Source: Coleophoma eucalyptorum (lineage: Eukaryota > Ascomycota > Leotiomycetes > Helotiales > Dermateaceae). From it: 64,000 bases of DNA. The notes under the pieces are model-generated. The model did not search any database and had not been told where the DNA came from. It saw nothing but the letters and a program-made list of their open reading frames with translations. This document shows positions 13,278-61,569 of the stretch, piece after piece. Each line of letters starts with the position of its first letter. Within the stretch, counting starts at the first letter, position 1. Location: NCBI GenBank assembly GCA_026120035.1, contig JALRME010000035.1:248001-312000 (forward strand), in the 5' to 3' direction. The position numbers were made by a program, and so were the translations under genes.

Positions 13278-16200
13278 TCATTTTGAAGAGTTATACAACT
13301 CCTGAAAAGCACTTGGGCTTCCTAATAAAGCTCGTGGTGAATCAAACTCGACGAGTTCCCCGTTGCTTAGCAACGCAATCCTATCAAAGTCAAGTATGGT
13401 ATCCAGGCGATGTGCTACGGAGATAATTGTAGCATCCTTGAACTCTTCCCGAACCACACGCTGCACTAGCTTGTCTGTGGTCACGTCGATACTGCTTGAA
13501 ACCTCATCTAATACGATGATATTGCTTTTGCGCAGAATGGCACGAGCAAGACAAAATAGCTGCCGCTGGCCATGAGACAGGAGGTCCACGTCAAGCTGTG
13601 CATCTAGGCCCCCTCTAGCTTCAATGATAGACCATAGACCGACCTTGGTGAGAGCAAGGATGATTTCTGCATCGTCATGGGTGTTCTCCGGGGAAGAGTT
13701 CTGTCGGATACTTCCTTTTATGAAAAATGGGTCTTGAGGAATTGCGTTGAAACATGATCGAACGGCTTGTCGGCCGACTTTTGTGATATCAACCCCATCA
13801 ACAAGGACTGATGAGCATAGAGTTAGTGACTGTTAACTTTCGAGAGAGAGTATTACGACTCTTTACGTAATACGGGATAGGAAATGGGGATGATATAGCT
13901 GTAATCCACTCACTGGAACTTTCTGATGAGATCTCAAGTAGACGGAAGAGTGCCATGACTAAGGAGCTCTTGCCACTACCGGTGCGGCCACAGATTCCGA
14001 TTTTCTCACCGGGCTTGATGGACATGTCAATACTCTTGAGTACCGGTGGCCCAGCAACGGTATACGACACAACGAGGTTTTTGAATTCAATAGCACCATG
14101 TTCAGGCCAGTTATCGGAAACAGGCTGCTCTTCCCCCACGAGATTTTCATTCGGAGTGCTCTGAGTGAAGTTCTTCAACCTAGAAATGGCTCCGATGGAC
14201 GTTTCTAAAGAAGTCCATTGTCGAATGATCCAAGCTAGAGACTGGCTAAAATTGATCACATTCAGAAGTGCTAACCCAACAAACCCCGGACCAACGGAGT
14301 TTCGAAGTTTGATAACGAGTACCATCATGATAACAGCGAGAACAGTAACCATCAAGTCCAGAACAAGAGCGAGCCATCTTTGAATGCACCAAAGTAGGTA
14401 ATATGGCTTCTGTGAATTATCAAGTAGGAGCAGATTCTGCTCTACGAAAGCCTCAGACCAGTTGAATGCTCGAATAGTCACAAGCCCAGAAAGTGACTCA
14501 ATGAAATGCGAGTACAATGGGGATTTGGCTTCTAAATCAAGAAGTCGAACTTGACGCGAGGTGCGTAGATAGTATTTTTGAATCACTGCAGGTTGAGTCA
14601 GTCATTAACAACTTTTCAGAACTTTGCAAAGAAATAACACTGGTACTTACCCCAGACGACGAAGATGACCGGAGGCAACGTTAGTGCAAAGTATCCAGCC
14701 GCGAAGCACATCAAAATTGCTCCTACTACGGCCTCTACTAATGCAACGATAAGATCAATCAGTGCGAATGGAAGATCATTGTCCACTATAGACATGTCTT
14801 GGCTGAACCTGCTCCCGGATGTTCTGATTAGTGGCTATCATAGCTGTTATTGAAAATAACACTAACCTGTTTGTTGTGATACCCGTATCGGTGGATGTAA
14901 AGAAATGTAATGGCGCGTTCATAACTGTGTGCAGAAGTCTTGCGTGCAGTTTCTCTGCACTAACGGGTACTAGGTAGAGAAAGAAATGGTAGCAAGCAAC
15001 TGTCCAGGAAATTGTACCTATAACTGCCAGCATCCCATACAGGCCCATGTAAAGTCCGTTGACTTCCGTACCATACGCGGATAGTGCATTGGTCCAATAA
15101 GTTATAACCAATTCTGTCAGTTTGGCTGCTACTCCGGATAAAACAGTGAGGAACAACCACAGGAGGGTTTTCGACCACCCGATAGAGCTGAAATAGTACT
15201 TGTAAGTCGAAAACTCGCCAATGGGCCGATTGAGGTCGTCTTCCTCGGCCTTTACTTTAGCTCTGGCTTTGACGGCCTCGGTACTAAGAGTTGGCTGTGT
15301 ACCGGTGTTGTGCCCCCCTTCGCGCACGGTACCTGCACTAGCACTCTCAAACTTATGCTTAATAGCGAGCCCCTCTACGTAGCCGCCAGCATGTTGCAGT
15401 TGTTCAAGTGTGCCTTGCTCGATGATCTGCCCATTGGCGTCAAGGGCAATGATATGGTCTGCATAGGATAGTCGAGTGACACCATGTGTAACAAGAAGTG
15501 CCGTTGTACCCGACTTTCGAAGTAAACCTTGTTGACCAAAAAAACTGACAAACACCTTTTCTTCGGTCTCAGCATCAAGACCAGAAAAACCGTCATCAAT
15601 AACCATCAATTCCTTTTTCGAATAGAGGGCACGAGCAAGTGCTACGCGCTGCTTCTGGCCCCCACTTAAGGATATGCCTTGGCTTCCAACAATTGTATCT
15701 GGAATATTTTAGCATCAGTCACCTCAGAGGATTGAATTGTATCTATTTACCATGTGATTCAGGTAGTGCTGCTATATCATACTCCAAAGCGCATGCGCCG
15801 ATGGCCTCGTTATACCGTGACTGGTCAAAGTTAGATGTGCCGATAATATTCTCTCGAATAGAAGTGTTCTGGATCCAAGGGCTCTGATCTGCAAAAGCAC
15901 TCTCCAATGAGTTGCTATACACAAACCCTTTTAAGGACGGTGTTTCACTCATTAACCCCTTCAATAGAGTGCTTTTACCGCATCCTACAGGACCAATGAT
16001 GAAGACGAAAGCCCCTTGAGCGACAGAGAACGTGACGTCGTTAATTTGTGGACGACCGCTGAGACTCCATCCGAAGCTCGCATTCCGGACATCTATCAAT
16101 GGCTTTGAGTAATATGGGCGTTTGGCTTCGAAGTCCTGCAGCTCAAAATTCGTTTCTGGATTGACATTTACATCGGTAAGCGGTACTCGATCCTCGTTCA

Positions 16201-18194
16201 AGTGAGGATTACTAGAATTTGATGCAGCGCTCAGCGGCAGAATATGACATTGGCGAGAGTTTGATTCAAGAAAAGACTGGATCCGATCAAAGCATGCAAG
16301 ACCCGCCTTGATATTTGGGATCGTCCTGAGCAGAGTGCCAATTGGGTTATTTAGCATTGCAATGAGGGAAAGCATTGTGAAAGCCGAGGAAGCGGTCAGT
16401 TCTCGACCCAATGCCCCTTCAAAGGGAATAAAAAAGAGAAGTGTGACCAATGGGGCAAGCAATCTCATATTATTTGCTGTCATGTCTTAGAACAGAAACT
16501 CGATCGGGGGCAGGGTAACATACAGAAGAATGCACCGGCGGTCAGCAAGCGTCTAAAGACAAATGAGAGTTGCAACTCTTTCACCCGAAGGTCTTGTACG
16601 ATCTTTGTGATTATTGGTGTTAACCCAAGAACTTTTACAGCCTGCGATTTATTATTAGCTTTAAAATTGAGACTTTTGCTACCATCCTCCTTACCTTCAT
16701 CGAGCCCAGCATGGAGGCTGAAACATCAACACGTGTCTGTATGCCTTCATTCCAGATTTTTTGAGCACTTCCAATATATTTGGAAATCCAAATGGTGCCA
16801 ACTGCGGACAATATCGCAACAGTCGCAGGAGCAAGCAAAGAGAGACCAATTTGTCTCTGAAGTAACCATAGTGCTATGCCTAATTCAACAGGTACAGCCC
16901 AGATCTCATGTAGATTTTGAAAGCCTCCACATATACTTTCTTTAAGTTTTATCAAATTATTAGTCACCGATTTCCACAAGCAACCATTATCACGTAAAGT
17001 GACGAGTACTTACCTGTATCATTAGACATTAAGGTGATCGCCGCGGATTCATTCAAAGCAGTGATACTTAAATCCACAGTTTTAGCATATATCATGCTTA
17101 CCAAAGTCCCACGAACAGCTGTGACGAAACGATAACATGTATGGTAGTAGATGGCACTGGTAATAGCCATGCCCAAAAACACAATCAGAAAGGCGCCGGT
17201 AAGCCCCCAACCTATATTATCAGAATCTTTTTTCCGACCGACAAATTCGACAGTCCGAGATAAGAGAAATGGTTGGGCGTATCGAAAACCAATCAAGGCC
17301 AACCGGGGGAAAATGCCAGCTGCCAGTTTGATACGATTCGAGTTCAAGGTTGACCAAAACAATGCATGAGACTTGGCTTTGTCTGCTCTGGCCCATAGAG
17401 TCTCTGCTCGTCTCTTCAGCGAAATCGAACTGAGGTCATCCTCTATTGGAAACAAATCCTCGTCACGAATAACTTGACGAAATCCCATGGTCATTATCTT
17501 ATTCAACCACCAGAAAAAAGCACGACTATAGAGTCCACTAGTGGCCTCCGGAGAAACATGCTGATATGGAGGCAACAAGATCCCGCGTTTCTCCACAGCC
17601 TCTATGATAACGACAGTGAGCTTCACAGCGAGCATTGCTGAAAATACAGCAGCAATGGGTTTCGGGGCATTCTGGATCCATAGTGTCCGCGTGCGAGCAA
17701 TATCGAACAGGAGCGTTATAAATAAATAGGTATTGGCGATATCTGAGGGGCGGAGTGAGCGGAAATGCTCTGCGTGGGATAAAAGCAGCAAGCCGAGTGC
17801 ATCGATGACCGCCAGAGCCGCAGCTGCCACAGCAGAGGGCGTCCTGACGCTAGAATTAGCAGCATAGAGAGCCAATATTGCAGCCTGAAAGGCTACAAAA
17901 AGGGCCAGGAAGGTCTAATAATGGCCATGTTAGCAAGGAGGTGGTGCTTATCGGTCGCAATGCATTGAATGAACTAACTAATTTGTTGCCATAGAGAATA
18001 CTTGATGATTTTGATATCTTGGGTGGTTCTTTGCGCAATGACCATAACCTGAATGGCAGTACGAGAACCAACAGCGAGGAGGGCAGGATTGACAGAATAG
18101 AATTCTCAAAGAAAGGGTTGAAATCGAAATGCCCTGTCGTGGAAGGGCCAAAGGATTGCAGGCCCTCTATAAAATCGGTCGAATTTAAGGACAT
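13278..18194 (-). CDS. ABCC (MRP-type) full ABC transporter, first copy
   Basis: Nine exons (18194-17979, 17914-17014, 16939-16695, 16641-16524, 16476-15751, 15698-14867, 14808-14651, 14585-13914, 13807-13278) give 1465 residues with the frame intact. Order: N-terminal hydrophobic TMD0, TMD1, NBD1, TMD2, NBD2. NBD1 has Walker A GPVGCGKST (about residue 655), signature SLSGGQKQR, and Walker B VIDDGFSGLD. NBD2 has Walker A GRTGSGKSS (about 1265), signature LLSHGQRQL, Walker B IIVLDEVSSSID and H-loop VAHRLDTIL. As usual in ABCC proteins, NBD1 has Asp instead of the catalytic Glu after Walker B, while NBD2 keeps Glu. Likely a drug, toxin or conjugate exporter in the plasma membrane or vacuole; substrate unknown. 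A Zn2Cys6 gene lies just upstream on the same strand and may control it (inference). A paralogue lies at 56167-61569. Confidence 0.93.
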
Positions 18195-36556: not shown

Positions 36557-39500
36557 CTATGCCCAAATAGTTCTAAACTTCTCATCAAACTCCGTCTTGA
36601 GCTTGCGGAAAGCACGATAAACATTCATCAATTTTTCATACTCCTCGTCGTCCGTCTCGCCACGGCCTTCTTCAACCATCTCATTCTTCAAAAAGTCCTC
36701 TTCGGCAACCAAAGCATCCTCGCCTGCGTCCCAGTCATCAACAACCCCCTTCTTTCCTTTCTTGATCAGTGTTGGTGGTGGGGCTGGTGCTGCGGAAACA
36801 GAACTAATTGTTGTCTCGGTGTCTGTGGCAGCGATTTGCTCGTCGGCGTCATTTTCTGCTGCATCGCCACTACCCATAACATCAAGCATTTCGGGATCTT
36901 CATTGCTACCAAGTCCAAGGTATAATGCCAAGGAAGTGCAAATTGTAGCCAGTACCATGGAGAAATCATTGAGCGCAAACCACACCTACTTTCAATTAGC
37001 ATCAGAAGAACAGATCACGTAAAATAACTTACATCAGACGAGCGAATGCCGTTGGCCTCTTCCAATGGCTTAACAGATCCATGGATAAAGAAATCAAGCA
37101 GGTAAGCATTTAATGGGGACCTTGTTTCATCTGGATAAATTTCAAGATGAGGAATAACAGCTGATTCCAAGAAAACCCCTTCTCTTGTCGAACTGCAAAG
37201 GTCTTCAATAGTTTTGAAATCATCACCATGCCCGGAAAGTGCAACAAATGCTGATCGTGCGTGAGGTGCTGATAGGGTTGGTAAGAAGTCAATATGTGTT
37301 CCTGTTGACTTTGCCTGGGTACTTCCATTTACACCTTTACCATTGACTGGGCCCGTGGCATCTGCGCCGATAGGTGTCTTTGTGAAAGGGAGTTGGCTCT
37401 CTTCCTCATCAATATGTTGTGCCGCGAAGGTCTTCACATAGGTTGTGAAGACGTCCAGCGTATCAGAATTGTGTTTCCGTAGGATATCAACTGCTTCAGT
37501 AGGCATATTTGGAAGGTATACCATGGAGGGTGATCGCTGAATCCTTTCAATCTCTTCTTCATCTTTGACTTCTCTTACAACTCTGCGCGCAAATAGATGA
37601 CTCAAAACAAGCAATAAAGTCGATGTGATTTCGTCACCTTTCGTTTCGATGTCCGCACACAAATTGTGGAAGTAGCCACCTCGTAACAGAGCATGGAAGG
37701 CGAAAGAGGAATTCTCCGTGAAGTATAGGTGAGAAACTATGCTAGTGAATTCTACAGGCTCTCCCCGAGGTCCAAGGAGCTGGTTTCGGCGCAGATACTC
37801 GATAGAGAACCTCAAGTGATGTAACACTTGTTCCTTGAAGCTCTTACCTCCGAGATAAAGTCGTGGCTGAGATAGAAGCGAGTTGATCGTTTTGACTGCA
37901 TATGGTGAACTTTTTGAATCGTTCAAGAGGGTACAGAGTCTTAGCACCAATGTTGTGGTAATTGGAAAGTGGCCAGTCATTTCAGGCAGTTGGGAACTGA
38001 GTAGTTGACTAGCTCTCTCCCGAGGGATGCCCTGGAAGACAACATTACCTAGCAGATCAAATCCACGACGACCAGATCTACCAGCTGCTTGTCGGAAGTT
38101 GAGGGCGGTAAGGTATACTGAATCTCCTGAGAACACTACTGTCGCACAAGGCATGTTGATACCCAAGGAAAGTGTGCCTGTCGCAATAACGACTCTCAGA
38201 AAGCCTTTTCGGAACAACATCTCCACAGACTGGCGGTACTTTCGATTCATACCAGCATGATGGACACCGATTCCTCGCCTAAGTAGGTCTATGAGATCTT
38301 CGGCAATATATTTTCGACGCAACTGCTTAATGTAGTCGTCCAGTTCAGTCTTTGGTAGGTGTTTAGGATTAGCAAAGCTGAAGTCTGTCTGAGGAGCGTT
38401 GGGATCGAAGTTATCATAGATTGACACTCCATCCGCAGCTGCATCATCGCGCATGCGGTCCATTTTCGATCCTCCATCGTCATCATCATTCCCTTTCTTG
38501 GATGGCTTTACCGGCTTTCGGGATTTCTTGTTCTTTTGTTCCAGATATTTCTCGAAACCTTCCATGAGCTTTTTCCACTCTCGGCCTTCTTTCCACTTGT
38601 TTTCTGCATCGACTAGCTGTGTCAATACGCTTCGCGCAACATTCTCACACTCGGTACGGTCGTAATTGAACAGAATTGCAGGAAGTGCTCTGCGCTTGTG
38701 TAGCTGGAAGAGGAGTGGTAACGTTGTTGACTTCAGGTCAAGAGGGTCGACAACGTCATTCTCTACAGATGAGCTTTCCAAGAGCAAGTCTGAGTTTCCG
38801 TTCACTGCTTCCTTTCCAGCTAGTTCTGGGGGACTAAGCTCAGAAACAATTTGGTCAAATGGTGACTCAGAATCTCCCATCCATTCTTTGAGTACCTTCT
38901 TGAGACCTTTCTCCCAAGCAAAGATATCCGCTTTTATAATACAAGCAGGAAGTGCCTTAGCAGGATCTAGCGAATCTGGGACTTTGTACTTCTCATTCTG
39001 GACTTTGCACATCACTTTCCACAGAGAAAAGCAGTCACGAGGTTCAAGAGCTAGATCATCAGGCATGCCTCGACTTTTATCGATCAAAGAAGAAATAGGA
39101 TGGAACGCCTCAAAGCCTTCGAGGCCATCAAGACCAAGACCACCACCATACGATCTGCCGAAACCGGAGAATTGGAAAGTCTTTGGCGGCTCGTACATGT
39201 ATTTTCGGAGATCAGAGTATCTGGTCGAATGCTGAATCATCTTCATCTCGTGCCCGGAAGCCTTTTGTGTTTCCGTGAGCCAGTCATTGAAACTTTCTGG
39301 GTTTCCGACAGTCGCAGATAGAGCAATAATCGGACATGGGGCAAGCAGGAGTAACTGCTCCCATACAGCACCATCTTCTGCCTGGCCAATAGAGTGAATT
39401 TCATCAAAAATGATTCGTCTGACTCTGGGTGCCCATGACTTTGCGTTCGAAGGACTCAAGAGCATGATTTGTAGGATGTGAGGGACAGTGACAAGAATTT

Positions 39501-42500
39501 GACATCCAGTTGAGTTGTTGACTCGGTAGTCTCGAGTATGGATAGCCCAGACACCTTTACCTGGCTGCGGGAACTTTTTGGAGAAACGACCTTTAGTAGG
39601 TTAGCTTATGCGCCAAAAAAAACCATTGCTTTTCATTCCATTTCCTCGAGGTATGGAGGAAAACAAGAGAGATGGGAATGTTCATAAGGAACGAAAGGCA
39701 TCGATAAATCAGTTGCTTTGTTACATACCTTGAACTTCAGCAGCGATCTGGTTAACAAGTGCCTTCGTTGGAGCAACATAAATCAAAACCCCGTCGTTGT
39801 CGGCTCTCAAAATACTTTCCATAGCATAGAAAGATATGAAAGTCTAAGAAAGTCAGCGATAGTGGAACAAAAAGATGAAAGTTGGAGCAATGTAAAGAAA
39901 GCAAGGTGCATACTTTACCAGCAGATGTTGGAGCGACCACGAATACGCTTCGGTTTGCATCCAGGTCATCCAACACCTCTCTCTGCCAACCATCAGGGAC
40001 AAAGCTTGTTACTCGAGGATCGGGCTTGGCATCAAGCATACGGGGCATATAAGGGCCACAATAGTCAAGCTGGAAGTTGACTTGAGGCATATCTATGCGA
40101 AGAGACTGTGTCAAAACCGGATATTTGAATGCAAATGACAACTTCCTCTCTGTGCCAGATGGCACTATAGGGGAAAGTGCATCTGTAATACCCAAGAGTG
40201 ATGCAACCTTGGTCATGTGTAAGATTATTTCCTTCGTGATTGGCGACTTCGTAGTGCATAAGGAGCGGATTGTTGTCCAGATGAGTGCCACAACGTGGTA
40301 TCCCTCGGGCTTCTTGCTCGCCTTGCAGTAATCAGCCCACCAGGAAAGTAGAGACTGCAGAATATAAGTGTTGACTTCCGACTCGAGATATGATGCCTTG
40401 GTTGAATCTAGGTTATTGAGATAAGAAGTTGTTCGTAGATACCGATCCTGGTAATCCGAGACAGCATCAAGTCCTTTCATGACCACAGACCATGCAGAGA
40501 AGACTTTGTCCGCCTCACTACTTCCCTTTCGCTCCTTGTTATCGGCAATCATCTGCTCTTTCTTCGACAGTCCAGCAGCCGCTTTCTTAGTCCCTTTCTT
40601 AGCAGGACCCTTGGCCTACACCATTTTCAGTTATTAAGTGATTCAATCGCTAGGGAGAATTCGTACCTCTTGCAATTCTTCCTTTTTCGATTTCTTCTCG
40701 GGTTTGGCCGGTTTTTCGGGTTTAGAGGATTTCTCTGCTATTTTGGCCAATTGCTTTGGACCAACGGTGATCGTTTCTGGTTCCAGAGTTTTCCCCTTAG
40801 CACCAGTCAAGCTTGCGGCGTAAGAAGTCATCTCGCTCATGTAGAACTGATTCAGTCTCAGGGGATTTCTTTGTTCAAATTAGCATTAGTCCCCGGAAAT
40901 CAACTGGGGATGCTTACTTCCACTTTGATACTTTCACAACCGGTGCCAGCTTCGGGTTGAGTGGTTTCCTGTGATTGTGCCAATGAGTGGTTTCTCTGTA
41001 GATACGCATTGATCCCAATCGAGCCGCCACAGAATTATCAGTTTCCACATCGATGCACTCCAGATGTTTGTCAAAGACAGGGCTAGAAAATGGCAGCACT
41101 GCGAGGCTGTCGGCACTCTCGCCAATATGAGTATCTTCTGTATTGGCCTGGGAAGATTTGGGAGTGTGAAGATCCACAAGGGTCAAAGTGGATCCGCTGT
41201 CAGTTGTTGACTTGATAATGCGGGTAGCAGTTGTCCAATTATCTTGGAAAGGTTCCGTAGATGAAGCTGTCAATTTTCCATCGGCAAAGGCCTGAAGAGT
41301 GGCTCGAAAAAGTCGTCCATCTACCAGATCGACGGTATCAGCTTCTTCGCCTTTATCATCACGGCTTTTGAGCAACTCTCGCCATTCAGAGCTATCGATG
41401 ATGCTTCGTGCAGCCGCCGAAAACTTAGCAAAGAAGCCATCTATCTCCTCCTCGTACTTTTCATCGAAAGTAATGAGTGGCAGACGACGTTGAGGCAGAG
41501 ATACTTTTTCAAGCACCAAACTATGGAGCATGAACGCAGAAGCCAGAAAAGAATTAGTCTGCTCGTTCAGAAGTTTTGCCATAGCGTGAGCTACAAGATA
41601 TGGACCAAGATTCATTTCTTCATGGGACTCAAGAGGCTCCAGCTTGGCAGCTTTGAGAGATTCACCCTGTTGCTTTCCAGCCTGGGATATCATGTAGTCT
41701 GACATCAGAGTTCGGGAAGTCCTGATTTCCTCGATAAAGTCTGAGGTCATCTGAGGCTTCAAATTGCTTGGCGGTGTAAAACTCTCCATGATCATCGTAA
41801 ATACTTTCGAGTCTCTGAACTCGATCCGATTGATCAAGGCGACATTTAGCCCGTGAATATTAAAATACCATATTATTCCACGAAGCCAGTTCCTGGAGTA
41901 TTTGGCAACCTCTGAAGTATCATCACTGTTGTACTTTGCTGCTCCATCATGGGCCATCACAAAGTGAATGGGAGAGACATGAAGATACTCCTTGAATGCA
42001 TCGCTACTCAAGGAAGGAAATTCATGAATCTCGATATTTGTTCCAGATGATGGAAGACGTAGGGTTAAATGTTGTATGATGGCTGATCTTGCAAGCAAAT
42101 AGCGGGACCATTTTTTTGCGGAAGCTCCATGAGGAATACAAAGGTACTCGTGCTCAGCAAAGAAACCAATGTGAAATTGGCAGTATCTTTTGACCAAATT
42201 TTCCAAGAAACGCTCAACGACATACACTGCGTGCAAGAGTTGGAATCCATCTGAATTGTGTTAGTCGACAGCGCTTAAAGGTAATTGTAAATCAGACGAT
42301 GCGATTGGCATGTGAATATGGGGGAACGGGCAGGGGTACCATTGAAATCAATTCTCTCATCTTCAAAGCATTCTCGTAGAAGGGAGTCGCCCTCTACGAG
42401 AAACAATTCTTTTCCGGCATAGTCTCCAACTAGATCAATCCACATGGGTCTGGAGCTGTCATACCAGGCCGATATTGATTGAATGCCACGCACTGGCTCT

Positions 42501-50196: not shown

Positions 50197-50735
50197 CTAT
50201 GCAAGGTGAAGAGCCTTGAGAGCAGCTCGCTTATAAGTTCCGTAGCTTCCGTATGAGCCATCTAAACAGTGATGATTAATATAAGAAGCTATTACATAAT
50301 TCGGAATAAAGGATTTCTCTTACAGTTGGTTGGAGTAGGGCTTGGTGGAGGGGGGGCTGGGTAATCGGTGTAAGTGCCATAGGCACCGTAGTTTCCGTAG
50401 TCAGTACGCTTCTCCTTGGGTGCGTCCAGTGCTGCATCTGGGGCGGGAGCAGCTTCCGGGTCGCGCTTGTAGGTGCCGTAGCTTCCATAAGAGCCATCTA
50501 GAGAAGTCAGATATGACATAAAATGCTTAGACTGTAAAGAGTGACTTACAGCCTGTTGGGGTAGGGGCGGCTGTTGAGGATGATGAAGAAGATGGGTAGT
50601 TGTCGTATGATCCGTAAGCACCGTAGTCACCATAGTTGCCGTAGTCAGTGCGCTTCTCCTTTGGTGCATCTGCTGCAGGTTCTGGGGCTGCGTTTGGGTT
50701 GCGCTTGTAGGTGCCGTAGCTTCCATAAGAGCCAT
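50197..50735 (-). repeat. Tandem exon-intron repeat units in the precursor gene
   Basis: Exons 3, 4 and 5 each begin with nearly the same 37 bases, encoding YGSYGSYGTYKR. The introns before exons 3 and 4 both end CTGACTTCTCTAG, preceded by similar GTCAT-containing sequence. All four introns split a codon after its first base. Internal exons (81, 186 and 174 nt) are multiples of three. Whole exon-intron units were evidently duplicated. Confidence 0.85.
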
Positions 50736-51069
50736 CTAGAGAAGTCAGAAATGACGTACAATGTCTAAGTTGTCTTCAACCACTTACAGCCCGTTGGAGT
50801 AGGAGAAGCTGTGGAAGATGAGGAGGTGGAGGAAGCAGGATAGTTGTCGTAAGATCCATATGCGCCATCTGAAGATATGTGAGTACTTGGGAACGTTTTC
50901 GTGCTAGATGGGCAGAGTCCTTACAGTCACCATAATCACCGTAGTCGGCACGTGCCTTGACTACCTTATCTGGGAGAGCATCTGCGTCTGGCTGAGCGAC
51001 AGGAGCAGCAGCGACGAGGCCTACAGATGCAAGGGCCAAAAGGGCCATGAAGTCTTTGGAAAAAAGCAT
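50197..51069 (-). CDS. Secreted Kex2-processed repeat precursor, candidate RiPP (dikaritin-like) precursor
   Basis: Five exons (51069-50925, 50868-50788, 50735-50550, 50497-50324, 50261-50197) sum to 216 residues. Residues 1-22 form a signal peptide (MLFSKDFMALLALASVGLVA). The rest is Tyr/Gly-rich (29 Tyr by my count, no Cys or Trp). It is cut by five Lys-Arg sites at 86-87, 103-104, 148-149, 167-168 and 206-207. Three tandem segments each start with DYGxYG..Y-type repeats and continue through a Ser/Thr/Pro linker. Each ends in the identical YGSYGSYGTYKR (76-87, 138-149, 196-207). Acidic Ala/Pro spacers ending KEKR separate them. This is the layout of Kex2-processed repeat proteins such as dikaritin precursors. 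A DUF3328/UstYa oxidase gene diverges from it 1.6 kb away. Alternatives: a pheromone-like or cell-surface peptide. All introns are phase 1. Confidence 0.85.
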
Positions 51070-52640
51070 GATGTAGGTGAAATAGGCTGTATTGAGGTGA
51101 GGATGATATGCTTTGTTAGGAATGAAGAAGCTGTGGATGAGGATGAGGATGGACTTCTGTTTGGGAGGAGGAAGATATTATATACAATGTAGACGACAAA
51201 GCTGTGCTCGTATAGGTACCTCAAGACTCCCAAATCTGAATGATCATAATCGAAAAAGCTAAAGATTTGACAATATGACATTATAGCAGCCTCCACCGAC
51301 AAGCTCCCGATTTAGCCGGGATGTAGCATGCTTGGGTCTTGGCCCTCCCGCCAATCATTATGAGTTGTAAGTTCGTGTTTGCCAACGTACAGGTGGACCA
51401 AGTAGCGGACGCTGTACGTATGAGTTGGTAGTCTTACAAATATCTCTAAGTATCCCATCACGAGGCTTAGCTGAGAAGATCTTATCTGCATGAGGTATTT
51501 TGAACGAGGTATTCTGCATAAACTTCAAGTTGGGTCAATCTAGTTGTTACCGACGCTGCAGTGAATTCGTAACACAAAGCTAGAATTGTGTGATAAAACA
51601 GTCTCGGGTTCAACACCCTCATCATCTGCATGTGCTGTACAAATTCGGACGGAATAGAGCCAGCTGTACGGATACACCGACAACACACCGAGACACTACC
51701 TATGCCAGGGCCTTCTCGCCGCCAAACCCAATCGTAAAGTGTAACATAAACTGCAGAAGGGTATGGAAGCTATGCTGGCTTCCATGCTTGAGTGGTGCTA
51801 TTTTGGGATAAGCTTATTAGTGATGAGGTTGGTAGCGGCAGTGTGCTCTACTGTACGAGTGCGGGGTTCTGCAGTATGCCAGATGCAGTATGCAAGATTC
51901 TCCAGCCTCGTAAAAGAAGCTCGTATCCTGTAGATCTTGCGAAAACCTTGGCCATCTACTCTACTCGGCTCGGCAAAACTAAAAGTCGGCAGATGCGATT
52001 GACCGCCAGTTCACAGCCATTCAACTGCAAGACTCCTTGCAGATAGATTCGATAGCCGTCGTGGTAATGCCATGCAAACGGAGAATTCGGAAAAAAAAAC
52101 AACGCACGAATAGGTTCCTTGGGTGATCCTTCAGTACCGATGTCTTTAGCGAGGACAACACGAGATCACTAAGACGCCGCCTGAGCCGAAGTCCAAGCCC
52201 CGGGCTGTGACAGCAGGGCAGCAGGGCAAGCTTACCTTGCAAAGTACGGCTTAACCCCGCCATGGACAACGCCGTCACAACCCCACCATCTGCTGCCTAT
52301 CCGGGCCGGCCACTATGGTCATGAGTTGTTGTAGGATTCATAAACCTCGTATTGTTCCATGGCTATTGTGAGATCGTATTGTTAAAGCCGTACTACGCAA
52401 ACAGACTTCTGTACGTCACTCACTGCGCTGTACACTTTTACCGTGCAGCTCCCCACTCGGGGTGCTTTATTTAGCATCTGCTGAGCTCATGAGAATTGAG
52501 CAGCCAAAAGCTCTCTACGGTGACAGCCGGATGTTCTTTTCTTGTCCATTGTACCCAACACCCCATCGCCTTTCGAGATCTTATCACTTCTTCTTCTTCT
52601 TCTTATTCCTCTTCCCTTCCTCCCTCTCAAAATATCCACC
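51070..52640. other. Divergent intergenic region between precursor and UstYa-type genes
   Basis: About 1.57 kb that should carry both promoters. I see no gene. Notable bases: CCCCACTCGGGG inverted repeat near 52451-52462, the GC-rich CCGGGCCGGCC at 52301-52311, and a CT-rich tract 52585-52630 just before the UstYa-type start. Confidence 0.45.
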
Positions 52641-53629
52641 ATGAGTCCCTTTGTGAATCCGGACAGTTCAAGGGCCATGTATAATCCACTATCAAATAAA
52701 AGCGAGTCGCCCGACCATGACAGTGGGTCAGAAGACTGCGAAACCCTTTTATCCGAAGAATCAGGAACTTCCTACAAGAGACCAGCCTCGAGGAGACGAT
52801 ACTTTTACTTATATATAGCAGCCATACCGGTCATAGCAATTAGTCTGATTGGGTTTGGCGCATGGATTGGAGTTCGATGGCTTGCGAATCCTGATGCCAT
52901 TTGCCCTTCATATTCCCAGCAATACTGTAAGTGTGCAACCCCAGTTCTCTCCCGGGAAACTGACACCTAGTAGCACCGATTTTAAAAGAGGTTGATCAAT
53001 CAGTCCAGATGGTTCGATTCAATGGATCATTTATGAAAGAAAGCGCCTTCCGGTTGGAAGCCGGACCTGAGGTAGATGCAGCGTGGGCATCCTTGGGGGT
53101 TGGCTGTAAGAATCTAGCAACCAGCTGCTTTGTGCAGCGTGCTAACCTGCGTATAGACCGAAGCTTGACGGTTCCAGAGAGTGAGGCGGCAGCAACGGGT
53201 CTGAAGCCTGACCAAGTCAAGATCAATCAGAAGTACGGCGGTGGCTACCCGGCGAACGTCGAGGGCTTGCATCATCTGCATTGCCTGAACCTCGTACGAC
53301 AATCTCTGTACTACAATTACGACTACTATCATTCGCGCGGGGAAGGTGCCTTCACAAACGATGACAATATCGTCAAGTACCACGTGTCGCATTGCCTCGA
53401 CATTGTGCGCCAGCGTTTGATGTGCCAACCGGATACTGGTCTCCTTGGCCAGGTGTGGTGGGATCCTCATGCTCCGAAAGCATTTGTGGACTTCAACACC
53501 GACCACAAATGCAAGAATTTTGATGCCATCAGGCAGTGGGCCGAGGACCGACAAATTTCCCAGACGGTGCCGTCGGACTTTCTGCAGCCGCCAAAGGACG
53601 GCGACACTATATATGACGCTATTCCATAA
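52641..53629 (+). CDS. DUF3328 / UstYa-type oxidase
   Basis: Exons 52641-52926 and 52974-53629 give 313 residues, a normal length for this family. A cytosolic N-terminus of ~50 residues ends in RRR, then comes one membrane helix (about residues 54-75, YFYLYIAAIPVIAISLIGF). The lumenal domain starts SPILKEVDQSVQMVRFNGSF and carries the typical SAFRLEAGPEVDAAWASLGV block. Both signature motifs are intact: HHLHC at about 195-199 (EGLHHLHCLNLVRQ) and HVSHC at about 232-236 (YHVSHCLDIVRQRLMC). UstYa-family proteins are copper-type oxidases that cyclise Tyr-containing core peptides in ustiloxin, phomopsin and asperipin biosynthesis, and also act in other pathways. With the Tyr-rich precursor next door, peptide cyclisation is the natural hypothesis. 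The start has a strong context (CCACCATGAG). Confidence 0.93.
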
Positions 53630-54666
53630 GGCTTACCGGCGCCCTTACTTCAAGATCTGGGAAGCGGGAAAATAGACGATTAACGAAGTTTTGGTTGGTA
53701 TCTACTTAATTTTAATGAAGAAGCTTAAATCTTGGCAATGCCCTACGCGAGGTTATGGGGTAATGATTGATGCTCAATTCGTGACCGTTGTTCCCCCCCG
53801 CCAGAGTCGACTTCGATCCTGGTGTTACATCGTCCAGAGTGGCACAGACCCGAGTAACACAGTCCCCACCTTTGGCTGGTGACAGCCAGCATGGACCAAC
53901 AACACTAAGCAAAACATAACAAAACTAAACAGTAAAAGGTATAGATTAGTTGCAATGAGGCTGTCTTTCTTCCAGATTGCACAGGGAAGGAGATTGAGCA
54001 TAAGGGATAGGCGAGCGGTGTAGGTATTCTGCCGCCTTAACTGGAAATAGGGTTATTCTGGCTCGTCCGTGTGTTCTGTCCGGTTCGTCCATTAATTCTC
54101 ATCGCCCCATGTGTGCAGTACAGTCAGACATGCGCACTCTGCTGGGTTTAAGATGCTTCCTCCCAGTTGCAGCAATCAACTCGTTCATCAATTCTGGGCT
54201 GTGTCCCTTGATTGGGCGCTGTCCCGCCAAGGCAGCCTCAGCCATCTAACCGTACCCAGGGGGGGCATGAGGCTGACGATCCCGTCTTGCCATATATAGC
54301 AGGAGACACTGCCGCCTTTGAGGGACTGGAGCTTGAGGGGAGCAATGGAGTGGGTGAGCCCTGGAGTTGCAGCGACACTCTCCGCCGTCTCAGAGCGGCA
54401 TGACGCACAGATCAAGATAGGATGTGGGTTCAGAAGGACTAACATGTCACTTCGCAGCACCTTTGGCACCGCCCGCGCAAGGGGCGTAAGCACTTGTGTT
54501 CATCACTTAGTACGTACAATCCCTTCCTTTCATTTACTCTTCAATCCGTCCATTGCCGTCCTTTTGCCTTTTACCCTTTTGCGCCCCTCTTGAGTCGAAT
54601 TGAGTTGGAGATAGAAGGGCGAGAAGAGAAGCGTAGAGCAGTGCAAAGCTGCGCTCGGTCGAAAAC
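53630..54666. other. Intergenic region
   Basis: About 1 kb between UstYa-type and lectin-like genes, same strand. Pyrimidine-rich before 54600. Short ORFs show no motif. Confidence 0.4.
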
Positions 54667-55654
54667 ATGTCCAACTTCAATACCAACAAGTGGTACCATA
54701 TCAATGTTGCCCTTCCGGCGAAATCGGGTCAGTCAATGATTGGCAATGTTCTCTATAGCGCCGGTGGGACTGGAACCGTTCTCTTCAACACCACGGACTT
54801 TACTGCGCCAGAACAGCAATGGCAGATCTATCCCTACAACTCTTCCTACTATGTCTTGCGCACCAAGGCGGCGGGTAGTTTTGGGTACTTGAACACGGCT
54901 GCGGCAAAGATTGAGACGACGCCGGGCAACACAGTTCCTCGAATGCTGAATTCCACTTTCTCCGATGATTCTTGTCTTTGGCAGATCTCCCCTTGGGGCG
55001 ATGGCACTTTTTATTTCACCAATGCTGCAAATGCTTCTTTATGGCATCTTTTCGTTAAACCTGGTTCGGCAATGGCCATGAGCTCAAACATCACAGCCCC
55101 CCAGACGGGCCAGAGCTTTACGTTTAATGCCACGGGAACCATCGACAACAGTACCTACTCATCTGTCATTGTGAGTGCACATATAAACTCCGGTAATCAA
55201 AATCTAACACAAGATATTACAGTTGAGAGATGCTACAACTGTTACATCCGCAGCCACATATACATCCACCTCCACCGCTTCACCAACTCCTACTTCAACA
55301 TCCAAATCAAAAGGCGGCCTATCAACCGGCGCATCTGCAGCCATTGGAGCTTCTATAGGTGGAGTTGCAGTGATCGCTTTGCTGATAGCTGGATTCATAT
55401 ACTTCAGGAAAAGAAGTAAGAGGGCGACGGCGGGATATGGAGAACCACATAACCCAGACACACCTACAAAACAGCCACTAAATCCAGACACCCCTCCGAA
55501 AGAACCCGTGAAATACTCGGACCGGCGTACCAGTGAGCTGCACGCCAACCACACAACCGAGTTACCTGGGCAGCACCGGCCAGCAGCCCCGGAACTGTAT
55601 GAAATGGATGCCAATTCGCAAATACCAGAATTGCCAGCGCAGCAAAAGCGGTGA
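54667..55654 (+). CDS. Ricin-B-like domain protein with one membrane helix
   Basis: Exons 54667-55170 and 55223-55654 give 311 residues. Residues 1-165 (FNTNKWYHINVALPAKSGQS onward) look like a ricin-type beta-trefoil, with repeated QWQIYPYNSSYYVLRTKAAG and LWQISPWGDGTFYFTNAANA blocks and several NxS/T sites. A Ser/Thr stalk follows, then a membrane helix (about 210-235, GASIGGVAVIALLIAGFIYF), and a polar cytosolic tail with repeated NPDTP. This is the layout of fungal cell-surface sensors or adhesins. No classical signal peptide is seen, so the helix would have to act as a type III/signal anchor or the start lies elsewhere. Its proximity to the precursor/UstYa pair may be chance. Confidence 0.8.
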
Positions 55655-56166: not shown

Positions 56167-59100
56167 TTACTTCACAATCTCACTCTCTCCTTCGCTCTCA
56201 CTAACATTCTCACTCACACTCACACTCTCACCCAAACTCTCCCCCTCTTCCTTCCCTTTATCCTTCGAACTAGCATACTTCTCATAAAGCGCCGCAAACG
56301 CACTCCCCTCCCTCGCCAACAACGTCCCCGGCGCATCACACTCCTTCAAGCGTCCCCTATCCAGCACGGCGACACGGTCGAAGTCCAGAATCGTATCCAG
56401 CCGATGTGCGACAGCAATGATAGTGCGGTCGCCAAACTCCTCACGGATAATGCGCTGCATGAGCTCGTCTGTCCGGCGATCGACACTGCTGGTTGCCTCA
56501 TCCAGCACCACGATTTTGCCAGGGCGCAGGATCGCGCGCGCGAGGCAGAAGAGCTGCCGCTGGCCGTGCGAGAGCGAGTCGGGATCCAGATCGTGGTTGA
56601 GGTCCTGTGAGAGCGCGTCCCAGAGATGCACTTTGTGCAGGGCTGCCATGAGCGCCGAGTCGCTGTGTTGTTCGTAGGGGTCGAGATTCAGGCGCACGCT
56701 GCCGGCGATGAAATATGGCTCTTGGGGTATGGCGTTGAGGCGGGAGCGTATATCGTTGCGGGGGATGGTGGAGAGGTCGATTCCGTCGATTGTCATGGTT
56801 CCGGAGCTGAGCTCGAGCATGCGGAAGAGTGCGAGGATGAATGAGGATTTGCCGCTGGGGTTTCAAAGTTAGTTTGTAATTCTCTTTGGTGTGGGGAGGG
56901 GGGTCCGAGAGATTGCATGGGGATCTCACCTGCCACTGCGGCCACAGATCCCGAGTTTTTCACCTGGATTGATGCTGAAGGAGAAGTTGTCCAAGGCCTT
57001 GTTGTCGGCGGTTCTGAGAAGTTAAGCGAGCATTGGTCAGTTGACTCTATTAAACACTACGAGGAAGCGAAGGGCCTTGGTTCTTACTTGTAATATGCAG
57101 ACACTTCGCTGAATTCCACTCTTCCATATTTTGGCCAATCCTCAGGCGGCGTGTTGGTTTCTCCTGGGAGTGCTTCTCGGGAAGTGTTCTCGTCGAACGC
57201 TTTCACGCGGGAGACGGCACCGATACTAGTTTCGAGAATGGTCCCTGGAGATGTAGGTCAGCAAACTGTAGCCTCAATAGATGAGGTTCGTGGAGGGAGA
57301 AAGTAATAACTAAAAGGACTGAATGACATACACCACGAAACAAGCTGTTGCAGCGTGTCGCCAAATTCAATGATATTGACCAGTGCAACACCCGTAAAGC
57401 CTGGACTGACAACATGTCTTAGCTTCACAGCGAGGCCGGTAACGACGAGCGCAAGACCCATGGATACCAGATCCAAAACAAGTGTCAACCAGCGCTGGAT
57501 CATAAAGAGAAGATAGAAAGGCTTCTGCGAAGTATCAAGCAATTCTAGGTTCAGGTCTTGCTCTGCTTGCTGCCAGCCGAAAGCTCGTATCGTGGATAGC
57601 CCTGAGAGGGATTCTACAAATTGCGTGCTGAGAGATTCTTAGTCTGAAATCACATTTGAAAGATAGTGCAAAGGCGCGCTTACTAGAGTGGACTCTTGGC
57701 TTCCAGATCCATGAATCGAAGCTGTCGCGAGGTGCGTAGATAGTATTTCTGGATGAAGTAGAAGACTGCTGCAATGAAAGGGTAGCAAAGTGCGATATAG
57801 AAAGTTGCTGTCGCAATCAGGACGGCTTGACCTATACCGATGAAAAAGCTTGCCGAAAGGTTCAATACAGCAAGCGGGAGTTCTCCATCGATTAGTTCGA
57901 AGTCTTGACTGAATCTGTTGCGGCAAACGTTAATTTATTATCAGAAACTACTTAGGAACAATCTTACCTGTTCAATAGAACACCGGCATCAACTTGTGAA
58001 AACAAAGCCATCGGTGCCCTGGAATGGAATTAGACCAAGTTTCTGTTGCGGGATTTTGGAAATACTTACGCCGTGACAGCGGAGAGCGTTACCCAGTGTA
58101 ACTTGACTCCTGAATTGATCACCATCGTGGTCAAGACGTGACTATATGGTTATCAGTTCTTCATACATCGTAACACTGGAAGAGGTGTACTAACAAAACA
58201 ACGAATGCAAGTGTGGCAAGTCCAGTAATCTGTAAGAACGAATAAACACCCATGTACATGCCAACATCCTTGTTTGGCTGTAGTGCATTTGTATCTGCCC
58301 ACCATTTTAACCAAACAGCTAGTATAGTTAGTCTTCGACGAGTTTTATGAGATCACAGCAGGGTGATACTGACTTGGAAATGAACTTAAGAATCCATAAT
58401 TAGCACAGGAAATAAAGAAGAGTGCTGTGGGGAAGACGCCAATGGTCTTGAAATAATAAGTGTAGATACTCAGATCACCCATTCGCCTTTTCTTCTCATC
58501 CATGGCATCATCTAAAGAGTTGCGGGTGTCGCCACCAAGTCTGAATGAGGTCTTTTTGGTTTCGCCCGTCGAGGAATCAGCCTTGGATTTTTTGACTTTG
58601 AAACTCGTCACATAGCCGTTGCTTTGATTGAGCTCATCAAATGTGCCTTGTTCCACAATGTCACCGTTGGGGCCAAGAGCGATGATATATTCTGCTGATG
58701 GGAGGAGGTTCACTATGATGGTTAGCAGAGTGCCAAAAAGGGAATTTCGCCTGGCAAAGTGCTCACCAGCATGCGTTGCAATAACCACAGTAACTCCTGC
58801 AACTTTCAACAGCCCCTGGGGGCCAAGTAGTCTCTCAAACACAAGTTGCTCGGTACTTGCATCCATCCCAGAAAAGACATCATCCAGGAAGACGACGCTC
58901 TTCCTTGAATAAACAGCTCGAGCGATTGCCTATATCCACTTGTTAGCGGCCGTCAATATCATAGTACTTGGTCTTCACAATGACCCACCATACGCTGCTT
59001 CTGGCCACCAGATAATGTGATACCTTTACTCCCAACCAATGTTTGATCACCATTTGGAAAGGTATCAAGATCTTCTTTCAGACCGCACGCATGAACCACA

Positions 59101-61569
59101 TCGCTGTACCAAGGGGCATCAAAATTTGAAAATCCAAGAATATTTTTCTGGACAGTTCCATTCTTCAGCCACGGTGTCTGGTCACAGAACGCAACCTCTT
59201 TTGATGCAACATACACGAATCCTTGTGAGCTGGGTGTCTCACCGAGGAGCGCCTTGAGCAACGTGGACTTTCCCGAAGCGACGGGTCCGATCAGCATAGT
59301 TAATTTTCCTGATTGGATGGAGATATTAAGATCTCGAAGAATTGGTCCATCTTTCGTGTTCCAGCCAAAAGTACCGTTGCGCACAATGATCGCCTCTTGC
59401 GACGATGAGGCTTTTGTGAACTCCATAGACTGGAGTTCAATACTTTCATGGCCAGCATCAGATTCCAAGAGACTAGCCTCGGATTCAGAGCTCTGTCTCA
59501 ATAAGAGTCGGTGATCGGAGTTTGTTTCTGAGCTGAGAAATTGTTGGATTCTGTTGAAGCAGCCCAAAGCACCCATGAAATTGGGGATGTTCTGAAAAAC
59601 TTGAGAGAGTGGACTCGAGAGTAGTGAAAGCAGTGATAATGAAGTAAACATCTTGGCTGTGTCAAGGGATTGGCCAGATGAGCGGGTTATTATGGTGAAG
59701 ACAGCAAATGTTACAATTGGACTTAGATGTTGCGGCGCGAACGCTGTCTTTGTTAGTAGAGTTCCATGATCTGAGAAGCGCAAGTCTTACCAATGCTCAC
59801 AGTGTAGATAAGCAGCATTCGAAACCGTTTCGCTGACTTGACTTCCACAACTCGAAGATGCTGAATCAAATCAGTCATCTTCTTCGTCAATCCAGCCATC
59901 TTCACGCCCTTCATTGAAGAAAGCATTGCTGATGTGGCGCCTTACTGATATTAGCCTTTATATAACAATAATACAGACCATAGTAGACCTACCAACTCTT
60001 TTCTGAAGCTCCTTCATCCAGAGTGCTTGCCTTGAACTAGCAGAGCTCGAGAGGCCAAAAGCACCACTCGCAGAAACTTAATTGCCATAATCAGTATGTG
60101 TCTCAGATAAGGTGGAATCTTAGACTTACGAAGTGCCACTATAATAGGAGCGATGCAAGCCAATCCAAGCTCGCGTTGAAGTAGGTAGGTTGCAATACCG
60201 ACCTGGATGAAATTCGCCCAAAACTCATGAATTGACCGAAGCCCCTGAACAATTCGCTCCACATCAGCACTCATCAGAGTGACAGCTGCGAGATTATCCA
60301 GAGCCGTGATGCTGATCTCGGTTGTCTTTCTATAGATTGCAGTAACAAGTGCTCCGCGAACCATGGTGATGAATCTGTAGGTCCGGTGATAATAGAAACC
60401 GGTTGAGATCTGTTGAAGGATTAGCATTGCTATAATAATGCATTGATTTCCGCTAAAATATTGCGTACCGCAAGTCCAAAGTAGACTAAACCATACGCTC
60501 CAATTAAACCATATCCAATATCGTCACCAGCAGTAGAATCTTCCAGATATTTGATAAAGGTATTCAAAAGAAGCGGCTGACAGAATGTAAAAGCCATTAG
60601 AACTAGTCTTGGAATAACTGGTGCCAGAAGAGGCCACTTGAAAGCGTCCAGGGTATTAAAGAAAAGCTTATGTTTTTTATTTCCCGCGGCTTTTTGAAGT
60701 ATTCGTCAGCAAATATCAAGTAACATCAAGCATATAGAATCAAACATACACTTCTCCCAAGACTTGGTCAGTTTCGACTGCAGCATCTCAGCCACTAATT
60801 GATCATCAAGAGGATACAAATCCTCTAAGGCTAAGACCTTCTTATATCCAGCATAGACGAGCTGATTCAACCAATAAAACACACCCTGGCTAAAAATACT
60901 ACTCGTCTCTTCAGGTCCGCGCAATTTATCATCGCCAATAAGATAGTCTCTCTTCTCCTTCGCCTCGAGAATCAAGACGCCAACTTTCACCACCAATGAA
61001 GTGGTGAAGACACGTGCTTCAATGGTGTCTTGACCAATGAGCCAAAAAGTACGTACGCGCACGATGTCGAAGAGAAGTGAGATGAAGAGAAAGGTTCCCA
61101 ATAGCATCGAAGGTCGGATACTCCGGCCGTGTTCAGCATAGCTGAGGAAACAGAAAACGAAAGCATCAATGAGGGATAACGCCCCCGCTGCTATTTTGAC
61201 AGGCGTTCTTTCCTGCACTTGCACACACCAGAGGACGAGGAGACTAAGCTGCAATGTTCCATATATAGCAATCGAGATCTATAGATGACAGAGAGAAAGA
61301 AAGTTTTATCAGTACTGGGTTCTCACGTGGATTTGCCTTGAACATACCAATTTAATAATCTGAAGTGTACTTCCAGCGACCCTCCTCGGTTTTCTCGTCA
61401 AGATCCATATTCTTGGCAGCGCCAGCAGCAGAAACACCACCGAGGGAAGCACAGAGAGGATTAAGTTCTCAAACTGGAGCGTAAAATCAAACGAGCGAAC
61501 GCACGGCTCGACCTGTGGACCGAAAGCATTGTCGCTCTGGTATCCGGTGGCGCATTGAGAAGAATTCAT
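56167..61569 (-). CDS. ABCC (MRP-type) full ABC transporter, second copy
   Basis: Seventeen exons (61569-61348, 61278-60750, 60689-60469, 60409-60130, 60076-59993, 59940-59791, 59743-58989, 58929-58767, 58712-58374, 58318-58195, 58141-58070, 58018-57968, 57914-57684, 57627-57332, 57244-57088, 57013-56930, 56854-56167) give 1481 residues in frame. NBD1 has Walker A GPVASGKSTLLK, signature ITLSGGQKQR, and Walker B VVFLDDVFSGMD. NBD2 has Walker A GRSGSGKSS (split by an intron), signature SLSHGQRQLFCLA, and Walker B IVVLDEATSSVD. TMD0 is present. The C-terminus ends in a Ser/Glu low-complexity tail. It is clearly paralogous to 13278-18194 but has twice as many exons. As the transporter nearest the precursor/UstYa pair, it is the leading candidate to export that peptide, which is inference. 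Confidence 0.93.

Follow-up and report, generated by a model that had tools for sequence, protein, structure and literature searches.

Does a secreted precursor with regularly spaced tyrosines, encoded beside a single UstYa-type oxidase, give rise to a modified peptide in the fungus Coleophoma eucalyptorum, and if so, of what kind? The two genes in question lie within a stretch of 64,000 nucleotides (contig JALRME010000035.1 of assembly GCA_026120035.1, positions 248,001 to 312,000 of the forward strand), hereafter the window; coordinates without a contig prefix are counted from its first nucleotide. The genes are divergently oriented, with 1571 bp between their start codons. We propose that they constitute a two-gene unit for a dikaritin-like ribosomally synthesized and post-translationally modified peptide (RiPP), in which Tyr-rich Kex2 products would be crosslinked by the oxidase; on the strength of sequence comparisons, we assign this reading a probability of about 0.62. 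The anatomy of the genes, the periodicity of Tyr, the intact motifs of the oxidase, and the recurrence of the pairing can all be read directly from the DNA.

Precursor gene and predicted products

The precursor gene (51069..50197, minus strand) has five exons, with a spliced product of 216 amino acids (aa) and a stop codon ending at 50197. All four of its introns are in phase 1, and all four have GT..AG borders. Its parts, including the candidate Kex2 sites, are:

50925..51069, minus strand: exon 1, with the signal-like start, a short pro-region, and the first Tyr residues (splicing model)
50788..50868, minus strand: exon 2, with the remainder of Tyr block 1a and a Ser/Thr/Pro linker (phase-1 intron on each side)
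50550..50735, minus strand: exon 3, with YGSYGSYGTYKR, an acidic spacer, KEKR, and the start of product 2 (splicing model, exon comparison)
50324..50497, minus strand: exon 4, with the end of product 2, KR, a spacer, KEKR, and the start of product 3 (splicing model, exon comparison)
50197..50261, minus strand: exon 5, with the end of product 3, the final KR, a 9-residue tail, and the stop codon (splicing model)
50701..50706, minus strand: candidate Kex2 site 1, KR at residues 86-87 (derived by hand from the exon model)
50650..50655, minus strand: candidate Kex2 site 2, KR at residues 103-104 (derived by hand from the exon model)
50463..50468, minus strand: candidate Kex2 site 3, KR at residues 148-149 (derived by hand from the exon model)
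50406..50411, minus strand: candidate Kex2 site 4, KR at residues 167-168 (derived by hand from the exon model)
50227..50232, minus strand: candidate Kex2 site 5, KR at residues 206-207 (derived by hand; agrees with a DNA pattern match)

The repeat in this gene probably grew by duplication of an exon–intron module, as suggested by an identity of 81% between exons 3 and 4 and of 71%, without gaps, between introns 2 and 3. In the encoded protein, an N-terminus that appears signal-like by eye is followed by three Tyr-Gly-rich segments and five KR sites (residues 86, 103, 148, 167, and 206); the spliced model agrees with a preliminary description of this locus, made from the DNA letters alone, and the coordinates given there for the 216-residue precursor proved exact. 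Cys, Trp, and Phe are absent after residue 22. The distance from one Tyr to the next is exactly three residues in 23 of 28 cases, and the 23 Tyr pairs at spacing 3 found after residue 22 compare with a shuffle mean of 3.06, none of 20000 shuffles reaching 23. The resulting ladder mostly follows the pattern Y-G-x, where x is Ser, Thr, Asp, Asn, or Ala.

Kex2 cleavage at the KR sites is predicted to release products 2 and 3 of 43 and 37 aa, together with spacers of 15 and 17 aa and a 9-aa tail; product 1 would be 45 aa long if a cut follows the monobasic AR, or else 63 aa, assuming a signal cut at residue 22. In each of these long predicted products, which contain 9–10 Tyr, a Pro/Ser/Thr-rich linker connects two Tyr blocks. 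Calculated monoisotopic masses of the linear forms are 4629.83 Da for product 1 (if the cut follows AR), 4470.78 Da for product 2, and 3974.67 Da for product 3. The preliminary description had instead envisaged a short core ending in YGSYGSYGTYKR, a proposal that gives way here to products of ~37-45 aa. A kexin-type P domain is encoded in the same genome (C23:152624). Pfam assigned no family below E 1 to five of six precursor relatives and only a sub-threshold glycine-rich match to the sixth; NCBIfam yielded sub-threshold matches only, for one of five relatives.

UstYa-type oxidase

A DUF3328/UstYa protein with two HxxHC motifs is the class-defining enzyme of dikaritins (PMC12048977; this and the other papers are cited here for parts of their text). 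The DUF3328 enzyme CctR is a membrane-associated two-copper enzyme that is inactive when the HxxHC residues are changed, and its helical domain has been proposed to lie in the lumen of an organelle (PMC12435403). The asperipin-2a pathway has a single DUF3328 gene (PMC7329392). The oxidase gene of the window (52641..53629, plus strand) has three exons encoding a 296-aa UstYa/DUF3328 protein of the class-defining type, and its stop codon ends at 53629. The intergenic region and the exons are:

51070..52640, no strand: shared divergent intergenic region, 1571 bp
52641..52926, plus strand: oxidase exon 1, with an N-terminal tail and a hydrophobic, probably transmembrane stretch (by eye)
52974..53105, plus strand: oxidase exon 2 (alignment to relatives)
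53157..53629, plus strand: oxidase exon 3, which carries the stop codon and both motifs, HHLHC and HVSHC (a candidate two-copper site, by analogy with PMC12435403)

The domain matches Pfam PF11807 (UstYa) at 8e-51, and both motifs are intact in the arrangement HxxHC(x)nHxxHC, which bears out the divergent two-motif DUF3328 protein of the preliminary description. In 41 aligned rows of relatives, His178, His181, Cys182, and His215 never vary, and His218 and Cys219 are conserved in at least 90% of rows (P0017 numbering). A hydrophobic stretch near the N-terminus was seen by eye. We rejected an alternative 313-aa reading, which retains a 51-nt in-frame intron (53106-53156) as judged from alignment to 12 relatives; the spliced length of 296 aa equals that of the relative in Coleophoma crateriformis. 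The UstYa homolog search and the 12-relative alignment were made with the 313-aa reading. Querying PDB with the UstYa domain returned two matches (E 0.63 and 1.1), neither of them meaningful.

A second pair in the same genome

The genome searched comprises 45.26 Mb in 101 contigs. PF11807 gave 47 exon matches in it, with the window UstYa as the best, and these merged at 1 kb into 37 loci. A protein search with the precursor returned six matches, namely its own five exons (exon 1 thus being recovered again) and C22:247485-247670 (E 0.007). The latter match falls within a second precursor gene (C22:247715..247461, minus strand), a single exon encoding 84 aa with a signal-like start and one KR-bounded core of two Tyr blocks. 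Divergent from it, at a distance of 1221 bp, is a second UstYa gene (C22:248937-250218, plus strand) encoding 294 aa with both HxxHC motifs; both loci found in this genome for precursors of this Tyr-Gly (YG) type are therefore divergent from a UstYa gene. With 37 UstYa loci spread over 45.26 Mb, the rough chance of one locus adjoining UstYa in the manner of the second pair is 0.0036; only this pair counts as independent, since the analysis set out from the window pair. When the end of the repeat was sought with a stricter DNA pattern, nothing matched but the three window copies. Open reading frames (ORFs) around the second pair match the WW, PEBP, and class-III aminotransferase families, and by these matches the neighboring genes look like housekeeping genes.

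Relatives and linkage in other fungi

The precursor retrieved 16 matches at E <= 0.001, and a profile search, which scored the 8000 candidates sharing most words, retrieved 163 at E <= 0.01, of which the best 120 were listed; the UstYa search gave 495 matches, 120 of them listed. These lists were compared by eye. Three named species appear both among the listed precursor matches (16, and the best 120 of 163) and among the 120 of 495 UstYa matches, and in all three the precursor and UstYa proteins are encoded on contigs of equal size: Amylocarpus encephaloides (precursor P0001, UstYa P0040; contig of 72057), Acephala macrosclerotiorum (P0003, P0049; contig of 848192), and Endocarpon pusillum (P0155, P0050; contig of 107020), the last with consecutive tags GJ744_000525 and GJ744_000526. 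Endocarpon belongs to the Eurotiomycetes, Amylocarpus and Acephala to the Helotiales. Taken with the second divergent pair, this same-contig linkage in three other genera corroborates the pairing of a Kex2-repeat precursor with one UstYa oxidase put forward in the preliminary description, and it supplies the conserved neighborhood whose absence was to count against that proposal.

The same recurrence bears on the possibility that the Kex2 repeats yield linear, unmodified signaling or effector peptides and that the UstYa protein serves another pathway. A DUF3328 gene lies near 22% of 7878 surveyed Kex2-repeat precursors, so that most have none nearby (PMC7329392), Kex2-repeat peptides of mushrooms were found to be linear or minimally modified (PMC9769878), and UstYa relatives occur in genera that lack a YG-precursor among the matches listed. 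However, the pairing recurs at the second locus of this genome and in each of the three named species common to both lists, one with consecutive tags; Tyr at nearly every third residue could be used by a Tyr-oxidizing enzyme; and a Pfam scan of 27 window ORFs, each of at least 130 aa (26 out of a list of 50, and one more), recognized no other peptide-pathway gene. We consider unmodified linear peptides the least probable of the alternatives weighed here.

Named precursor matches among the best 120 of 163 come from the Leotiomycetes, Eurotiomycetes, Lecanoromycetes, Dothideomycetes, Sordariomycetes, and Geoglossomycetes, the class assignment having been checked for at least one match species in each of the six. 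Of the 125 precursor matches examined, 102 combine a crude signal sequence with four or more YxxY, and in 100 of these 102 at least half of the Tyr gaps are of three residues. Not every listed match is a true member: doubtful entries include a shrimp protein (P0241), a protein named for TIGR03000 (P0199), and one with another Pfam domain (P0234), and low-complexity sequence inflates such lists. Many relatives have acidic KREAEAE-type spacers, and several have a single core.

A short and strongly conserved amphipathic tail after the last KR occurs in matches of several classes. Under a crude rule (10 to 18 residues from the last KR), the 125 precursor matches divide into 36 with an amphipathic tail, 28 with an acidic tail, and 61 with no clean tail. 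Amphipathic tails of exactly 12 residues (n = 19) have Lys at position 8 in 18, Asp/Glu at position 5 in 18, Phe/Trp at position 6 in 17, and Trp/Phe at position 11 in 18; the consensus in one branch of the family is KR-A-V/I-D/E-F/W-V/I-K-R/S-L/I-W/F. The amphipathic tail is a candidate follower for recognition by the enzyme. The second precursor of C. eucalyptorum ends in a tail of this type, KRVSEFFKRLLT, and the C-terminus of the window precursor, AALKALHLA, is of neither the amphipathic nor the acidic type.

Phylogeny of the oxidase

The UstYa tree contained 53 rows: 47 of the 120 listed matches, the two spliced genes, and four pieces of paralogs from the same genome. The window UstYa groups with that of C. 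crateriformis, to which it is 90% identical over 280 columns. The two belong to a clade of 25 rows with support of 99/99, which includes the Amylocarpus and Acephala enzymes and those of four powdery mildews. Four genera of this clade were checked as Leotiomycetes; the remaining genera we take to be Leotiomycetes as well. Outside it fall Endocarpon, the second C. eucalyptorum copy, and other classes, along with four Leotiomycete rows (Sclerotinia borealis, two Pseudogymnoascus, and Xylogone, the last presumably a Leotiomycete), which may be paralogs. Pieces L002-L005 from the same genome are very distant, and in view of their very long branches we attach no weight to where they fall; the tree did not include L006-L008. 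The topology is compatible with mainly vertical descent and duplication, without proving it, and its deeper forks are unsettled.

A placement roughly as expected from vertical descent, in an all-Leotiomycete clade, also suits a structural or surface role, in which Tyr-Gly peptides would be matrix or wall blocks joined between chains by UstYa or by general tyrosinases or peroxidases, in the manner of tyrosine-rich adhesives or eggshells. The precursor matches span a lichen fungus and other lifestyles, as we take them to be, which resembles a general more than a toxin role. The Y-G-x composition and period are like those of structural proteins, and among papers found for YG strings, to judge by title and the opening of the abstract, one concerns mussel adhesion and one insect eggshells, with prion-like and condensate proteins among the subjects of the others. 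Kex2 cutting into soluble pieces of 37-45 residues and a single adjacent enzyme gene better fit a small-molecule pathway, and the protein search found two loci in the genome rather than a multigene structural set; we therefore view a structural role as unlikely.

Comparison with known systems

Dikaritins (ustiloxin, phomopsin, asperipin-2a) have signal-peptide precursors, Kex2-bounded Tyr repeats, and a DUF3328/UstYa gene nearby. The C. eucalyptorum precursor has the same layout, being secreted (to judge by eye from its signal) and carrying Kex2-bounded, Tyr-containing repeats. It differs in the length of the repeats, which in known dikaritins are typically 13, 14, and 8 aa (PMC7329392), whereas the products predicted here (43, 37, and 45 or 63 aa) lie beyond the range of 8-14 aa, and those of 37-45 aa bear 9–10 Tyr each, mostly with a period of three. 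Dikaritin tailoring genes encode a tyrosinase, a methyltransferase, and a peptidase, and some known clusters lack one or more of these; here, no tyrosinase match was obtained on C30 or C22, the contigs of the two pairs. A further difference is that the present pairing recurs in another class and that one copy stands beside housekeeping-type genes.

Kex2-repeat proteins in general resemble the YG family in being secreted and in their KR-bounded repeats, acidic KREAEAE-type spacers being present in many YG relatives, and differ in that several YG relatives are single-core and could escape repeat-based mining. BURP-domain cyclases, which act on short cores, are not known to be related to UstYa. 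These plant enzymes, the cyclases of burpitides, are likewise copper-dependent peptide macrocyclases, with four conserved His in a plane, as modeled for CctR (PMC12435403). POI2 of Neurospora crassa, a Kex2-repeat protein of the ustiloxin-precursor type reported to be needed for sexual development, provides a non-toxin precedent (PMC7329392); it differs from the YG family as described in that its repeats are of a short Tyr/Ile type.

Some types in surveys of Kex2-repeat proteins are Tyr-rich (PMC7329392, PMC6339444). A Tyr-Gly ladder type is not named in those parts of the survey texts that the comparison covered, and it could sit unnamed in their figures or supplements. Literature text searches with ladder peptide strings returned no work on a fungal peptide, by title. 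The combination of a Kex2 precursor with UstYa is of a known kind; the long Tyr-ladder core and the conserved pairing are new in that we did not find them described. The novelty expected in the preliminary description thus holds for the core, within the survey text covered, and not for the locus as an isolated cluster, as family matches occur in six classes.

Proposed pathway and evidence against it

We infer Kex2 processing, the identity of the substrate, and crosslinking with its pattern from the features described above. The precursor would enter the secretory pathway, where kexin would cut after KR and so free two spacers, a short tail, and three Tyr-rich products, these being ~45 (if AR is cut), 43, and 37 residues long. 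The UstYa-type oxidase would be membrane-anchored and face the lumen, with a two-copper site formed from its two HxxHC motifs; by analogy with CctR, enzyme and precursor would come together within the secretory pathway. The oxidase would then oxidize the regularly spaced Tyr, most likely linking them intramolecularly along the Y-G-x ladder, and the modified peptides would be secreted. Tyr at nearly every third residue would offer neighboring rings for repeated links, whichever atoms may be joined, or might instead be hydroxylated.

Several observations weigh against this proposal. Linkage in Amylocarpus and Acephala is to the same contig and not adjacency; for Exophiala, Pseudogymnoascus, and Xylographa, the species or strains differ between the two lists, so that these genera test nothing on linkage. 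The second precursor is a weak sequence match (E 0.007), accepted because of its anatomy and position. Aspergillus, Penicillium, Sclerotinia, and the powdery mildews have no YG-precursor among the matches listed (16, and the best 120 of 163), and among the 120 of 495 listed UstYa matches these four groups have proteins ~48-61% identical to the window protein; either their precursor diverged or is unannotated, or this UstYa lineage has other substrates. C. crateriformis, the closest genome by UstYa, has no precursor match among those listed, although the precursor matches do include a close partial reading, P0005, with 89% identity over 22%. A five-exon precursor gene was probably missed there by annotation.

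DUF3328 enzymes also hydroxylate and halogenate, and the window oxidase therefore need not crosslink: CctR acts on an unactivated C-H bond as a hydroxylase, and halogenation is another reaction in which the family is implicated (PMC12435403). Modification of these peptides by hydroxylation or some other oxidation nevertheless seems quite unlikely to us, since a Tyr ladder with Gly neighbors suggests a geometry between tyrosines, and ustiloxins, asperipin-2a, and phomopsins are cyclized via ether bonds at the Tyr ring (PMC7329392).

Genomic surroundings

A toxin-cluster reading was rejected in favor of the two-gene unit: besides the missing tyrosinase matches, no P450, methyltransferase, or S41 peptidase was found among the 27 window ORFs, a scan that a small multi-exon gene could escape. 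We make no claim for a promoter motif common to the intergenic regions of the two pairs, which share 9 10-mers (mean 3.9; reached in 2 of 100 shuffles), 26 9-mers (mean 14.6; reached in 2 of 100), and no 12-mer, because mononucleotide shuffles are a weak control.

Adjoining the UstYa gene, 54637-55654 (plus strand) encodes a protein that has a hydrophobic segment and weakly matches ricin-type lectins. Exon stretches at 13281-17914 and 56170-61278 (minus strand), ~40 kb apart, resemble related full-size ABC transporters; ABC domains were found only in the latter, the former being judged from ORF text, with its one scanned ORF matching no family. A large helicase with a DDX60 PIN-like domain (37018-42260, minus strand) is, we presume, possibly a relative of viral-RNA sensors. 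Elsewhere in the genome, apart from the window pair, UstYa exon matches and a tyrosinase match (C11:328085-331181) lie no more than ~2.5 kb apart and may belong to a dikaritin-like gene set of a more classical type.

Significance

The pairing of YG-precursor and oxidase points to a widespread family of modified peptides. A broader and more tentative interpretation, which we think doubtful, is that of a mainly vertically inherited system across Pezizomycotina, in which a dedicated UstYa lineage would stitch ladders with Tyr at every third residue into long polycyclic peptides for fungal development or surface biology, not toxins, and in which the C-terminal amphipathic tail of one branch would be a follower recruiting the enzyme. 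If the proposal is correct, UstYa/DUF3328 chemistry, so far associated with a handful of short peptides, would extend to long regular Tyr ladders in a family with matches in six classes, and a single peptide might receive many crosslinks from the one enzyme. Precursors that are short, intron-split, or single-core, and that surveys based on repeats can therefore overlook, would become searchable for genome miners. The family would also allow a test of whether the cyclic peptides of fungi first served in development or structure and became toxins only later.

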